DNA from: Luteibacter sp. dw_328
GTDB taxonomy: Bacteria > Pseudomonadota > Gammaproteobacteria > Xanthomonadales > Rhodanobacteraceae
NCBI RefSeq assembly: GCF_018449605.1
Contig: NZ_JAAVUW010000003.1
Location: 248,001 to 312,000, forward strand
Reading direction: 5' to 3'
Length of the DNA: 64,000 bases
Positions 9,307 to 42,456 of this stretch are shown here, one piece after another. Below the pieces are notes generated by a model. It saw only the letters and a program-made list of their open reading frames with translations. It was not told the DNA's origin and ran no database searches. The position numbers were made by a program, and so were the translations under genes. Each line of letters starts with the position of its first letter. Within the stretch, counting starts at the first letter, position 1.

Positions 9307-9603
9307 ATGTCGCTTTCCCCTACACAGTCCCGCTATCTCCGCAGCATGGCCCACGATCTCAAGCCGGTCGTCCTGCTGGGTAACAAGGGCGCCACCGAGG
9401 CCGTGGCCAAGGAGCTCGCCCAGGCCCTGGATATCCACGAGCTGGTCAAGGTCAAGCTCTCCGGAGGCGACAAGGACGAGCGCCAGGCCCAGATCGACTT
9501 CCTGACCAGCCAGACCGGCTCCGAAAAGGTCCAGGAAATCGGCCATATCGTCGTCCTGTTCCGCCGGAACGAGCAGGACCCGAAGCTCGCCCTGCCCCGG
9601 TAA
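9307..9603 (+). CDS. yhbY: Ribosome assembly RNA-binding protein YhbY (CRM domain)
   Basis: A 98-residue single CRM-domain protein associated with pre-50S particles. The family signature [18 protein letters not shown] (residues 27-44) is followed by HELVKVKL and the C-terminal VLFRR strand. The start at 9307 gives [20 protein letters not shown], the usual family N-terminus; a start 12 codons upstream is open but not conserved. Divergent from rlmE-ftsH, a conserved arrangement in gammaproteobacteria that groups ribosome-assembly functions. Confidence 0.95.
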
Positions 9604-9609
9604 CCCGCC

Positions 9610-9987
9610 ATGGACCTCTCGTTCGAGCACCCTGGCGAGTACCTCTTCGTGCGCCGGGTGGGCGCGAACACGGTCACGATCGTCGACCGCGACTTTCACA
9701 AGAGCCTCCTCCTGACCCCGGAAAAGGTCGTGGAAGACTGGCCTGTGACCGACGCGAAGCAGCTCACCCTGGCCGATGTCGCCCTCATCGCGGACCTGAA
9801 GCCCGAGCTGGTCATCATCGGCACCGGCGAGCGCCAGGTCTTTCCGCCTGCTGAAGTCATGGCCGGCTTCCTGCGTCAGGGCATCGGCGTCGAGGCGATG
9901 ACCAACGGCTCGGCCGCCCGCACCTACAGTCTCCTGGCCGGTGAGGGCCGTAAGGTCCTGGCGGCCTTCATCCTGCCCCAAGGCTAA
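9610..9987 (+). CDS. Mth938-like domain protein (DUF498)
   Basis: A 125-residue protein of the Mth938/NDUFAF3 superfamily. Visible family features are the N-terminal beta region ending in [12 protein letters not shown], the core strand [16 protein letters not shown] (about 65-80) and the [30 protein letters not shown] block. The biochemical role in bacteria is not established; the mitochondrial relative assists complex I assembly. Starts 6 bp after yhbY and ends 7 bp before panE, so it is probably translated from a common transcript with both. Confidence 0.85.
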
Positions 9988-38363: not shown

Positions 38364-38425
38364 AAGCCAACGGAGCGGTAACGCCGTAAGCCTGTCACCG
38401 CCTATGACGCGGGTTGCACTGGAGA

Positions 38426-38555
38426 GCCGCGAGGGGCAAGGCCCTTGGGGCCGCAGGCGCGGCTCTTCGAGACGGGCCGTAGCACCGCGTTCGCATTCCA
38501 TGTGAACTGAGCGGCCCTCAGCTTATGCGGCCCCAAGGGCCTTACCCCTCGCGGC
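38426..38555. repeat. 130-bp inverted-repeat element with nested stem
   Basis: Arms of 29 bp at 38426-38454 and 38527-38555 are complementary with one mismatch (GCCGCGAGGGGCAAGG opposite CCTTACCCCTCGCGGC). Inside, a second stem GGGCCG (38474-38479) pairs with CGGCCC (38512-38517). Not a terminator (no T-run) and not REP-family. Confidence 0.85.
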
Positions 38556-38620
38556 ACCAAACGTCGAAGTTCGTTGTGGTCGAGAGCGCACCGCCGACAA
38601 ACATGCCGCGCGCCCGCTAT

Positions 38621-39541: not shown

Positions 39542-40498
39542 ATGAATTTCCTCGGGCCCCGCTTCATCGTCCTGTATGTGCTGATCCTGTTCACGCTCTG
39601 CGTGTTGCTGGTGCATCTGCGCGGACGCTCACGCCTGCGCTTCGATCGCCAGCTGGTCGATCACTCGGCCATCTTCGCGCCGTACAACCTGCTGATGTAC
39701 GCCTTCTCCGCCGTGCCAGCGCGGCCGATCCTGGATCGCGCCGGATTCCCGCAGCTCGATCTGCTGCAGGGCAACTGGGAGAAGATCCGCGAAGAAGCCA
39801 TGCACCTGTTCGACGAGGGCTTCATCCGCTCCGCGGAAAAGCACAGCGATGCCAGCTTCAACTCGTTCTTCAAGCAGGGCTGGAAGCGTTTCTATCTGAA
39901 ATGGTACGGCGAGCCGCTGGCCTCGGCCGAGGCGCTCTGCCCGGAAACGGTGAAGCTGCTCAACGCCATCCCGAGCGTGAAGGCGGCAATGTTTGCCCTG
40001 CTTCCGCCGGGTAGCAAGCTCAATCCGCACCGCGATCCGTTCGCCGGCTCGCTGCGCTACCACCTGGGACTGATCACGCCGAACTCGGACGACTGCCGCA
40101 TCTTCGTCGACGGCGAAATGCACGCGTGGCGCGACGGCAAGGACGTCGTGTTCGACGAGACCTACGTGCACTGGGCCGAGAACCGCACGGACCAGACCCG
40201 CGTGATTCTGTTTGCCGACGTCGAGCGCCCTTTGAAGAGCCGCCTTATGACCGGCATCAACAAGCGCGTCGGCGCCTTCATGGGCTCGATCACCGCATCG
40301 CCGAATGATGACGAAAGCAGCGAACAGGTCGGCTTCGTCAATCGCATGTTCGCGATGAACAACCGCGGGCGCGACCGCACACGGAAGTTCAAGAAAGCGA
40401 ATCCGAAGCTGTTCCGCGTGATCAAGTACATCGGCATCGTGCTGATGATCTGGCTGATCTTTCTGGCGCCGTACCCCTTCTTTCGCGGCAACAACTGA
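39542..40498 (+). CDS. LpxO-like aspartyl/asparaginyl beta-hydroxylase family membrane protein
   Basis: Probable Fe(II)/2-oxoglutarate dioxygenase of the type that 2-hydroxylates secondary acyl chains of lipid A. The 318 residues have an N-terminal TM (about 8-25), a cytosolic catalytic domain with the iron site HRDPFAGSLRYHLGL (HxD) and the distal His in FDETYVHWAENRTDQTR (with the 2-oxoglutarate Arg). A C-terminal TM lies at about 293-312. This fits LpxO of Salmonella and Pseudomonas (about 300 residues). Peptidyl hydroxylase activity cannot be excluded. Stand-alone gene before a large repeat-rich gap. Confidence 0.9.
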   Translation: MNFLGPRFIVLYVLILFTLCVLLVHLRGRSRLRFDRQLVDHSAIFAPYNLLMYAFSAVPARPILDRAGFPQLDLLQGNWEKIREEAMHLFDEGFIRSAEKHSDASFNSFFKQGWKRFYLKWYGEPLASAEALCPETVKLLNAIPSVKAAMFALLPPGSKLNPHRDPFAGSLRYHLGLITPNSDDCRIFVDGEMHAWRDGKDVVFDETYVHWAENRTDQTRVILFADVERPLKSRLMTGINKRVGAFMGSITASPNDDESSEQVGFVNRMFAMNNRGRDRTRKFKKANPKLFRVIKYIGIVLMIWLIFLAPYPFFRGNN

Positions 40499-40536
40499 TG
40501 CCATGACGCGACTCGCCTTCGGTGCGTGGACGTCGC

Positions 40537-40610
40537 GGCGCAGAGCCTTCGGCGTGGCGCGGTGAGGCGCAGAGCTTTCGGCCTTGCGGGGTGAGGCGCA
40601 GAGCCTTCGG
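40537..40610. repeat. 29-bp tandem repeat, about 2.5 copies
   Basis: Unit GGCGCAGAGCCTTCGG plus 13 bp, at 40537-40565, 40566-40594 and a partial third copy at 40595-40610 whose CTTCGG end runs into the terminal inverted repeat of element copy A. Copies differ by a few bases. Confidence 0.85.
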
Positions 40611-40738
40611 TGCCCACCCTCGCTGCTCAGACAGGTCCTCCGCGCTTCGTACCGGAAAGTCCGCTGCGCGGACCATGTTTCTATTGGCCTACGGCCGCTC
40701 CACTTGTGCGGAACTCGCCTCGAGGGTGGGCACCGAAG
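40605..40738. repeat. Structured repeat element, copy A
   Basis: A 134-bp element: 18-bp perfect terminal inverted repeats CTTCGGTGCCCACCCTCG (40605-40622, complement at 40721-40738) around a 98-bp core (40623-40720). The core contains a hairpin GTCCGC-3-GCGGAC and a possible stem CCGC..GCGG near its right end. Confidence 0.9.
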
Positions 40739-40984
40739 ACTCTTCCCATCCCTGAGGTTCGTGCGGTCGAGCCGACGAAGCAACGCCGCTTCGGCGGCTG
40801 GTTCGTCGCCATCGTCAAGCGGCCAACTCAAGCACGCCGAGCGCGATCGCCCGCGCGAGGATGCGCGGCGGCAAGGAATGCGCTCACCGATCTGGAATGT
40901 CCGTACCACCACGACTGCCGTACCGGCCTCTGGCGGACACACCCACGCCAACGGCTCTCCGTCCGGTTGACCGTATCGTCGTGA

Positions 40985-41126
40985 GAGACCTTGGTGTCCA
41001 CCCTCGAGGCGAGTTCCGCACAAGTGGAGCGGCCGTAGGCCAATAAGAACATGGTCCGCGTAGCGGACTTTCCGGTACGGAACGCGGAGGACCTGTCTGA
41101 GCAGCGAGGGTGGACACCAAGGTCTC
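40985..41126. repeat. Structured repeat element, copy B (inverted relative to copy A)
   Basis: A 142-bp element: 22-bp perfect terminal inverted repeats (40985-41006 and 41105-41126, inner part TTGGTGTCCACCCTCG) around a 98-bp core (41007-41104). The reverse complement of this core matches copy A at 93 of 98 positions. Confidence 0.9.
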
Positions 41127-41244
41127 CCCGCGAGACGCCCAAGTGTACGAGGCGACGGCGAAGCCGAGCCCGCGAGGCCGAAGGCGAGCCATGCGCGAGG
41201 TGCGAGGTGCGAAAGAATGTCCGACCTGACAGCCACGATGATCC

Positions 41245-41277
41245 AAAAAAAAGACCCCGCATTGCTGCAGGGTCTCT
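41245..41277 (-). terminator. Rho-independent terminator of the isocitrate dehydrogenase gene
   Basis: Minus-strand stem AGACCCTGCA/TGCGGGGTCT (one mismatch) followed by eight T, 22 bp after the stop codon. Confidence 0.9.
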
Positions 41278-41298
41278 CTTCACCACCTGGCGAACGAC

Positions 41299-42321
41299 TT
41301 ACGCCGTAGCGCGGAGCCGCTCGACGATCGCGTCGCCGAAGGTATCCGTGGTACCGGTGCCGCCAACGTCCGGCGTCGTACGGTCGCGGGCTTCCATCAC
41401 GTCGCGGATGGCGGCGCGCAGGCGCGTGGCCTTGGCGACCATGTCGAGGTGGTCGAGCATGTCCGCGGCAGCGAGCAGCAGCGCGCACGGGTTGGCCTTC
41501 TTCTGGCCGGCGATATCCGGAGCGGAGCCGTGGACGGCTTCGAAGATCGCCGCGTCCTTGCCGATGTTGGCACCCGGCGCGAGACCCAGGCCGCCGACGA
41601 GACCGGCGCAGAGGTCGGAGAGGATGTCGCCGAACAGGTTCGTCGTGACGATCACGTCGAACTGGTACGGGTTCATCACCAGCTGCATGCAGGCGTTGTC
41701 GACGATCATTTCGCCGAACTCGATGTCCGGGTAGTCCTTCGCCACTTCGCGCGCCACCGTCAGGAACAGGCCCGACGAGGTCTTCATGATGTTGGCCTTG
41801 TGCACCGCCGTGACCTTCTTGCGACCCTTCTTGCGGGCCATCTCGAAGGCGTACTTGCAGATGCGCTGCATGCCCGGGCGGGTGTTGCGGATCATCGAGG
41901 TGGCGACTTCGGAATCACCCTCACCCGTGGTGGTCTGGCCTTCGGCCAGGTACGCACCCTCGGTGTTTTCACGCACCGTGATGATGTCGATGTTCTCGTA
42001 ACGCGCCTTCGTGCCCGGGAAGCTGATCGCCGGACGGACGTTGGAGTAGAGGTCGAACTTGCGACGCAGGGTCACGTTGATCGAGGTGAAGCCACCGCCG
42101 ATCGGCGTGGTCAGCGGGCCCTTCAGCGCGACCTTGTGTTCGGCGATCTTGTCGATCGTGTTCTGCGGCAGGAGATCGCCATGCTTCTCGAGGGCAACCA
42201 CGCCCGCGTCGACGTAATCGTACTTCAGACCGCAGTCGAGGGCGTCGAGAACGCGAATGGTCGCGTCCATGATCTCGGGGCCGATGCCGTCGCCGGGGAT
42301 CACGGCAATCGTCTTGCTCAT
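41299..42321 (-). CDS. icd: NAD-dependent isocitrate dehydrogenase (short, type II-like)
   Basis: Oxidative decarboxylation of isocitrate in the TCA cycle. The 340 residues belong to the beta-decarboxylating dehydrogenases and match the short homodimeric/IDH3-like form, not the 416-residue E. coli enzyme. Substrate block [20 protein letters not shown], metal site [10 protein letters not shown] and the cofactor loop [15 protein letters not shown] are visible. The Asp-Ile pair in that loop, where NADP enzymes have Lys-Tyr, indicates NAD use. Similar enzymes occur in Xanthomonas. Homoisocitrate or isopropylmalate use is less likely because of the isocitrate-type Ser/Asn in the substrate block. 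ATG 42321 follows AGGAG. Confidence 0.9.
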
Positions 42322-42456
42322 GGGGATAACTCCTGAAGGGAAGCGGGTCGCATGCGGCGCCAAAGGCGCGCGCGGGGAGAAAAATCGCCCAATTATCGGC
42401 GATCCGACCCACTTCCTTCAAGGATGCCGCCCCGACCGGAGCGGCATGGACGCAAT

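Follow-up and report, generated by a model that had tools for sequence, protein, structure and literature searches.

The two inverted copies at positions 40605-41126 of the window (the whole stretch of 64,000 nucleotides analyzed here), together with the spacer between them, very probably represent the interior of a non-autonomous transposable element of ISL3 type (ISRta1-like) in Luteibacter that carries structured arms. Directly visible in the sequences are an element that lacks a transposase, its 22-bp ends, 8-bp A/T-rich flanking duplications, a terminator-like hairpin on one side only, 27 near-full-length copies in the window's genome, and element-free sites.

A preliminary description of the window had reported the two copies with perfect 18- and 22-bp repeats and oppositely oriented cores identical at 93 of 98 positions, and all of these values, lengths included, proved exact on re-measurement (Table 1). 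The inverted similarity is wider than the copies, extending over 148-bp arms (40596-40743 and 40984-41131) that are 90% complementary and are separated by 240 bp.

Table 1. Features of the element copy in the window and of its immediate surroundings.
Feature	Positions	Strand	Remarks
Small-gene remnant (first codons)	40503..40522	+	ATGACGCGACTCGCCTTCGG vs ATGAAGCGACTCACCCTCGG in G006, 17/20, by-eye comparison
29-bp tandem repeat, 2.6 copies	40537..40610	none	overlaps outer edge of arm A
Arm A, structured module	40599..40744	sense strand minus, reads outward from spacer	model R1 score
Copy A, 134 bp	40605-40738		perfect terminal inverted repeat, 18 bp
Spacer	40744..40983	none	conserved near arms; middle variable with many indels; no common reading frame
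Arm B, structured module	40983..41128	sense strand plus, reads outward from spacer	model R1 score
Copy B, 142 bp	40985-41126		perfect terminal inverted repeat, 22 bp
Right subterminal region	41129..41225	none	holds GCCGAAGGCGAGCC, the motif forming outer ends in G003 and G011
Decayed right terminal inverted repeat	41226..41244	-	GGATCATCGTGG vs GGTTCATCGCGG, by eye
T8 tract (A8 on +) and hairpin, intrinsic terminator candidate	41245..41276	-	by eye

When the interval 40560-41160 was searched against the window's own genome (G000; 5.05 Mb, 21 contigs), 118 matching pieces were obtained, of which 27 cover at least 500 of the 601 query bases, spacer included; the core is thus present at many other loci. 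The spacer had been said to resemble nothing else, which holds within the window but not in the genome, where the whole A-spacer-B unit recurs. The 26 near-full-length matches besides the window copy show 77-88% identity, and the remaining pieces are partial copies, contig ends, and arm-to-arm matches. Some cores at different G000 sites are nearly identical (up to 99.8%; L020, L022, and L025; L029 and L031), pointing to recent copying, though no ISL3 transposase was found in this genome. For the alignment with flanks, 29 of 39 stretches around matches were combined with the window; fragments (L038-L042) and stretches at contig ends (L043-L047) were omitted.

The 18- and 22-bp repeats had been taken as the bounds of each copy, but the true ends of the element lie outside 40605-41126 and beyond the arms. 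They consist of a 22-bp inverted repeat of ISL3 type, GGTTCWTCGCGGAnTnCCGGGG, present in 41 copies from several Luteibacter genomes (left GGTTCTTCGCGGAATGCCGGGG, right CCCCGGTAATCCGCGAAGAACC). The earlier likening to a MITE or non-autonomous element was right in kind, but the repeats given there as terminal are stems within two structured arms. It is the ends, and not the core, that match a known IS family. Among the 30 aligned G000 copies an end was recognized with at most 5 mismatches on the left in 17, on the right in 18, and on both sides in 13. Searching all of G000 with the end pattern at no more than 2 mismatches gave 38 matches, and the reversed-pattern control gave none. At 9595-9616 (-) the window also contains an isolated ISL3-type end (GGTCCATGGCGGGTTACCGGGG; 3 mismatches, chance expectation 0.01), possibly a remnant of another element.

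The preliminary description had seen no target duplication. This is correct at the arm edges, but these are not the element ends, and duplications were found at the true ends of other copies. The 41 distinct elements scored were those with both ends within 6 mismatches in the scanned loci of several Luteibacter genomes, 15 of them in G000. Their 8-bp A/T-rich flanks agree on average at 6.02 of 8 bases (permuted mean 3.29, maximum 4.61 in 2000 permutations), and agreement at 7 or 8 bases occurs in 19/41 (permuted mean 5.9, maximum 13). Seven duplications are exact at all 8 bp, in G000 those of L031 and L034 (TTTAATAA). Because many targets are single-base runs, the persuasive cases are exact duplications of mixed sequence, namely TTTAATAA of L034 in G000 and CTTTTTTA, TTTTTTAT, TTTTTCTT, and AAAAAAGA in other species. 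Some elements fit poorly, for example L247 with none and L287 with two of 8 flank bases in agreement. Most elements (28/41) are 646-819 bp long, and five of 291-364 bp, also bounded by ISL3-type ends, contain a single arm motif (L040, L091, L116, L117, and L280). In G022, two elements with ends of the same type and matching flanks contain no arm motif (L082 406-658, 253 bp; L080 1088-2265, 1178 bp), so ISL3-type ends carry different passengers.

The ends are homologous to those of ISL3 insertion sequences. An ISL3 transposase match adjoins one such end in G014, and a complete IS in G118 (L115, 3-1306), which encodes a 406-residue transposase (PF01610, E 2.1e-68; also PF13542 and PF14690), has ends of the same kind. 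Plasmid-borne relatives are annotated as ISL3 family or ISRta1 family. Six loci were inspected; at five, which are plasmid or viral-contig copies, the IS measures 1303-1307 bp, its ends are of the same type, and 8/8 bases are duplicated (CTTTTTCT, ATCCTTTT, TTTTTTTT, TTTCAAGT, and AAAAAAAA); no ends were found at the sixth, L315, and an inverted-repeat search in L068 found nothing. The only PF01610 match in G000 was rejected as a transposase: the gene encodes a fatty acid desaturase (PF00487, E 2.1e-17), its PF01610 score of 22.4 bits is below the cut-off of 23, and a weak match of this kind is present in 23/23 genomes of the genus.

A terminator-like hairpin with a T-run is located on exactly one side of 36 of the 41 elements (right in 21, left in 15), on neither side of five, and on both sides of none, where 1.4/41 one-sided cases are expected when the 8-base tract is kept and the flank is shuffled. 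A hairpin on one side only is what T-tract insertion with duplication predicts, and, judged from these flanks, the target is the T-tract of a terminator. In a gene-context count using a simple codon-usage gene call, 35 copies were examined and 34 classified; 24/34 lie between convergent genes, 7 between co-directional and 3 between divergent genes, as compared with 8 convergent pairs among the 54 adjacent gene pairs of the window. The site occupied by copy L017 is element-free in G010, G022, G012, and G006 (with L387 aligned only in part). A single A8 tract precedes a CCCCGC hairpin at this site in G010 and G012, and the arrangement in G000 is A7-element-A8; G010 has about 7 differences next to the tract, and in the others the left flank has diverged.

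The window's own site could be read in part of the 22 relatives. In G007 and G020 it is an 89-bp gap without the element, G006, G003, and G011 have arms detectable by BLAST, and a motif search revealed diverged arms in G005 and G021. The neighboring genes encode an Asp/Asn beta-hydroxylase-type protein (PF05118) and, at 41299-42363, an isocitrate/isopropylmalate dehydrogenase-type protein (PF00180, E 1.1e-107). The terminator candidate of Table 1 probably belongs to the convergent dehydrogenase gene; a similar hairpin is present in G007 and G020 without the element, and the consensus terminator scan omits it since its loop is above the scan's size limit. The gap between the hydroxylase and dehydrogenase genes in G006 contains a small gene (a 146-aa ORF), which by eye other relatives also keep. 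In the window, the stop codon at 40498 is followed by a start resembling this gene and then directly by the element's tandem repeat (by-eye comparison). Because the small-gene start runs straight into the repeat, a single deletion probably took both the small gene and the left end, and the window copy, having lost that end, is probably immobile. GC-rich units resembling the tandem repeat are found to the left of arm A in many other copies. The decayed right end was missed by pattern searches at 5 and at 3 mismatches, and no element end was detected within 400 bp on either side of the copy at 5 mismatches. The four overlapping ORFs of the spacer have no Pfam match.

A consensus fold of the arms (model R1) was derived with RNAalifold from 38 arms of 12 genomes and contains 40 pairs, arranged as an outer stem, an inner stem UUCCGC:GCGGAG, a GGCC-GUA-GGCC hairpin, and a variable hairpin. 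Its cells are paired in 99.4% of cases as compared with 93.3% after shuffling, and sliding the partners reduces pairing to 37-48%. Compensatory, double-sided changes were found at 11 pairs and in 89 cells, as compared with 5.4 and 20.6 after shuffling. It is the outer stem and the variable hairpin that provide this support; the nearly invariant inner stem and GGCC hairpin contribute little. The interior of the fold is unsettled, as RNAalifold gave other inner helices on a 46-arm alignment and single-sequence folds often yield yet another arrangement.

The fold is asymmetric with respect to strand. At variable pairs read in the outward orientation, G.U occurs in 34 cells and A.C in 5 (10 and 4 distinct pair/type cases), with 26 of the 34 G.U cells at two pairs. 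The outward strand is the more stable in 92/93 short arms, 7/7 medium arms (G003), and 12/13 long arms, counts that overstate the evidence given that the arms share ancestry and 49 of the 93 short ones come from G000; the asymmetry is seen in all 12 genomes with short arms. The two tests overlap, so that the G.U counts overstate the evidence as well, and the stability asymmetry partly follows from the G.U pairs. The z-score was lower on the outward strand in 5/5 arms folded both ways. In the window, arm A scores 153.1 bits on the minus and 43.6 on the plus strand and arm B 156.8 bits on the plus and 46.4 on the minus strand, both being among the 38 training arms of R1. Taken together, the individual fold of each arm appears to have been preserved by evolution on one strand, the outward-reading one.

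The arms occur in a short form of about 142 nt and a long form of about 250 nt; G003 also has a variant of 186-188 nt that encloses a GTAGGAGCGC-type hairpin, in L130 and L131 on both arms and also in L132 and L155. All 12 long arms aligned contain a hairpin loop with (U/A/G)GGA, which is AUGGA in 10. No Rfam family scored above its gathering threshold for the element, and a known RNA family was thus rejected as the identity of the arms. Of the models matching over an arm, TwoAYGGAY came nearest: in L134 it reached 39.1 bits (E 0.0019; gathering score 43) in the extra domain of a long arm, on the sense strand. TwoAYGGAY belongs to the same Rfam clan as RsmY. GGA loops of this kind are binding sites of CsrA/RsmA proteins, and, as a lead for function, the long arms could titrate a regulator of this type.

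Within the searches made, the arms were found only in Luteibacter. Model R1 matched 12 of 197 family genomes, all in the window's genus (12/19 genus genomes, 0/178 others), under filters strict enough to miss a diverged arm of G005, so that negatives are soft. A DNA pattern for the short arm matched 74 stretches in an 84,980-species collection, all titled Luteibacter. Short matches of 30-45 bp in six genomes outside the genus (E at least 6.8e-5) were taken as chance. Carriage by plasmid, phage, or E. coli was rejected, as no element match was obtained in such sequences. Among the open PMC papers listed, judged by titles and abstract openings, none on the Luteibacter arm element was found. At 38424-38558 the window contains another structured repeat, about 135 nt in length and with a long outer stem. 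It has 19 arm-length matches in its own genome, 12 of them forming six inverted pairs with starts about 400-770 bp apart, and it matches the arm model weakly (24.5 bits). One strand folds better in 8/9 sequences; where pairs were read (three), the better-folding strand points inward and not outward.

Arm pairs also occur with other ends. In G003 and G011 they are bounded by GGCTCGCCTTCGGC... and its reverse in place of ISL3-type ends, two of which are located elsewhere in the G003 genome. No clear target duplication was found for 13 arm pairs with plausible ends (7 in G003, 5 in G011, and 1 in G008), with 2.6 of 8 flank bases in agreement (permuted mean 2.25, maximum 3.3); this test leaves out 5 of 18 elements whose end was placed inside an arm. 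As such pairs lack both ISL3-type ends and a clear duplication, the arms are independent of ISL3 and form a separate module.

Some sites are shared between species: excluding the window's own site, which was found by its flanks, of the 14 elements sampled in each of G003 and G010, 4 and 3, respectively, lie in gaps that also hold a G000 element. When 71 cores were placed in a tree, the G010 copies came together in one group and the G000 copies fell into two, one of which groups with G006 copies. Same-site copies are no more alike than others in four of four pairs (85.1/85.1, 85.6/86.4, 81.6/80.9, and 80.6/79.9%), which simple recent transposition does not predict; both junctions were recovered for 6 of 11 pairs. 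Ancient insertion with homogenization and repeated insertion are both possible.

Several other accounts of the paired arms were considered. The preliminary description had suggested that RNA spanning both copies would form a 120-bp duplex, and its folding estimate was borne out: the minimum-energy fold pairs A with B in 142/142 element-strands (71 elements, three genomes), so the duplex is energetically possible. The same counts are the argument for a long A:B duplex, as double-stranded RNA or a giant foldback, being the functional form. We nevertheless regard this as very unlikely, and the duplex was rejected as the conserved form. Arms of types A and B are stably distinct within genomes (A-A 93.5-95.7%, B-B 94.1-95.2%, A-B 85-88%), and those of one element are at most 0.3 points more alike than those of different elements (86.0/85.7% in G000 and 88.2/88.1 and 85.4/85.2% in the other two of three genomes), so the two arms do not co-evolve as a duplex; moreover, the five elements of 291-364 bp have one arm motif. 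These one-arm elements would in turn suit the earlier proposal that each arm is a small transposon bounded by its own 18-22-bp repeats, but they were detected by their ISL3-type ends, and A and B differ and recur together with the spacer as one unit, leaving that proposal hardly credible. A coding function was also rejected: 19/41 cores are open end to end, yet in different frames, spacer lengths are spread evenly modulo 3 (12, 14, and 15), and 152 of 539 gap runs have a length divisible by three.

More weight, though still little, is given to two further accounts. In one, which we consider unlikely, the arms are single-stranded DNA hairpins recognized by an HUH-type (RAYT-like) transposase, and the pair is an oversized REPIN that acquired ISL3 ends later. 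Inverted pairing around a spacer is as outlined for REPINs in PMC3116915, GTAGGAGC-type motifs lie inside two spacers (L126 of G003 and L134 of G011), the G003 and G011 pairs lack a clear duplication, and a strand-specific fold equally suits single-stranded DNA. However, the arms measure about 142-250 nt as compared with the 20-40 bp given for REPs in the account of PMC3733652, and the G000 copies with recognizable ends have ISL3-type ends and duplications. The other account, which we judge similarly improbable, attributes the covariation to quasi-palindrome correction, in which template switching repairs a stem to itself without any function being involved. The outer stems are indeed long and nearly perfect, and most double changes lie in stems; but correction should erase G.U and A.C alike, in conflict with the 34 and 5 cells observed, and it leaves unexplained both the invariant positions outside stems and the stability asymmetry, which every one of the 12 genomes with short arms displays.

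For the non-autonomous ISL3-type element, the proposed course of events is that an ISL3 transposase supplied in trans moved it into the T-tract of a terminator. Because the tract would be duplicated on insertion, a terminator stem would keep its T-tract and the flanking genes would be spared. The arms would then act as RNA, the least certain step: in read-through from either flanking gene, the last module of the transcript would be one correctly oriented arm, which could shape or protect the 3' end or limit antisense read-through. Weighing against this course are the failure to find an ISL3 transposase in the window's genome, the recovery of both ends in only 13/30 aligned G000 copies with neither recognizable by pattern in the window copy, the poorly fitting elements among the 41, the shared sites whose copies are no more alike, and the arm pairs of G003, G011, and G008 that lack both ISL3 ends and a clear duplication. 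Against the RNA step, a consensus scan of 40400-41400 found no sigma-70-like promoter; the only terminator-like sites it listed there, 40659-40673 (+) and 41068-41054 (-), correspond to the inner hairpin of each arm on the strand that reads inward. It is conceivable, though we hold it only tentatively and somewhat doubt it, that the arms constitute an undescribed family of structured RNA (or single-stranded DNA) confined to Luteibacter, in short and long forms, arranged as outward-facing pairs such that transcription in either direction would give one copy with the correct fold, carried on at least two kinds of ends, and kept by selection and not by copying alone.

The case described is that of a terminator-targeting ISL3 system with a non-autonomous passenger, a structured one whose fold evolves as if one strand matters. 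It is a candidate example of a selfish repeat that carries, or is turning into, a functional nucleic acid, and the four pairs of same-site copies that are no more alike across species bear on homogenization versus repeated insertion.

Among known systems, the ISL3/ISRta1-like IS shares with the element its 22-bp ends (GGTTCWTCG...CCGTGG / ...CCGGGG) and 8-bp A/T-rich duplications, which for the IS are pure T or A runs in two of five cases; an 8-bp duplication is also tabulated for ISPpu12a of the ISL3 family in PMC4133298. The IS differs in being about 1305 bp long with a transposase, whereas the element lacks a transposase and has an unrelated interior. MITEs and mosaic elements such as TIMEs, as presented in PMC4133298, likewise have many intergenic copies, ends like those of autonomous elements, and no transposase. 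The same source puts MITEs at about 30-300 bp, however, and with 28/41 copies at 646-819 bp the Luteibacter element is longer than that strict size range; TIMEs, as described there, have Tn3 ends, where the Luteibacter element has ISL3-type ends and paired structured arms. The window also contains a GTAG-type REP motif (GTAGGAGCCGATTCATCGGCGA), matched 17 times between 6561 and 59611 when as many as 3 mismatches are allowed (0.08 expected); 14 of the matches form seven close inverted pairs, an arrangement resembling REPINs. With REP, BIME, and REPIN sequences, as outlined in PMC3116915 and PMC3733652, the arms have in common inverted pairing, intergenic location, often between convergent genes, and G.T stem pairs. 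They form an inverted doublet as REPINs do, but the unit is a branched fold of about 142-250 nt and not a 20-40-bp REP, and the recognizable G000 copies are bounded by ISL3-type ends with target duplications.
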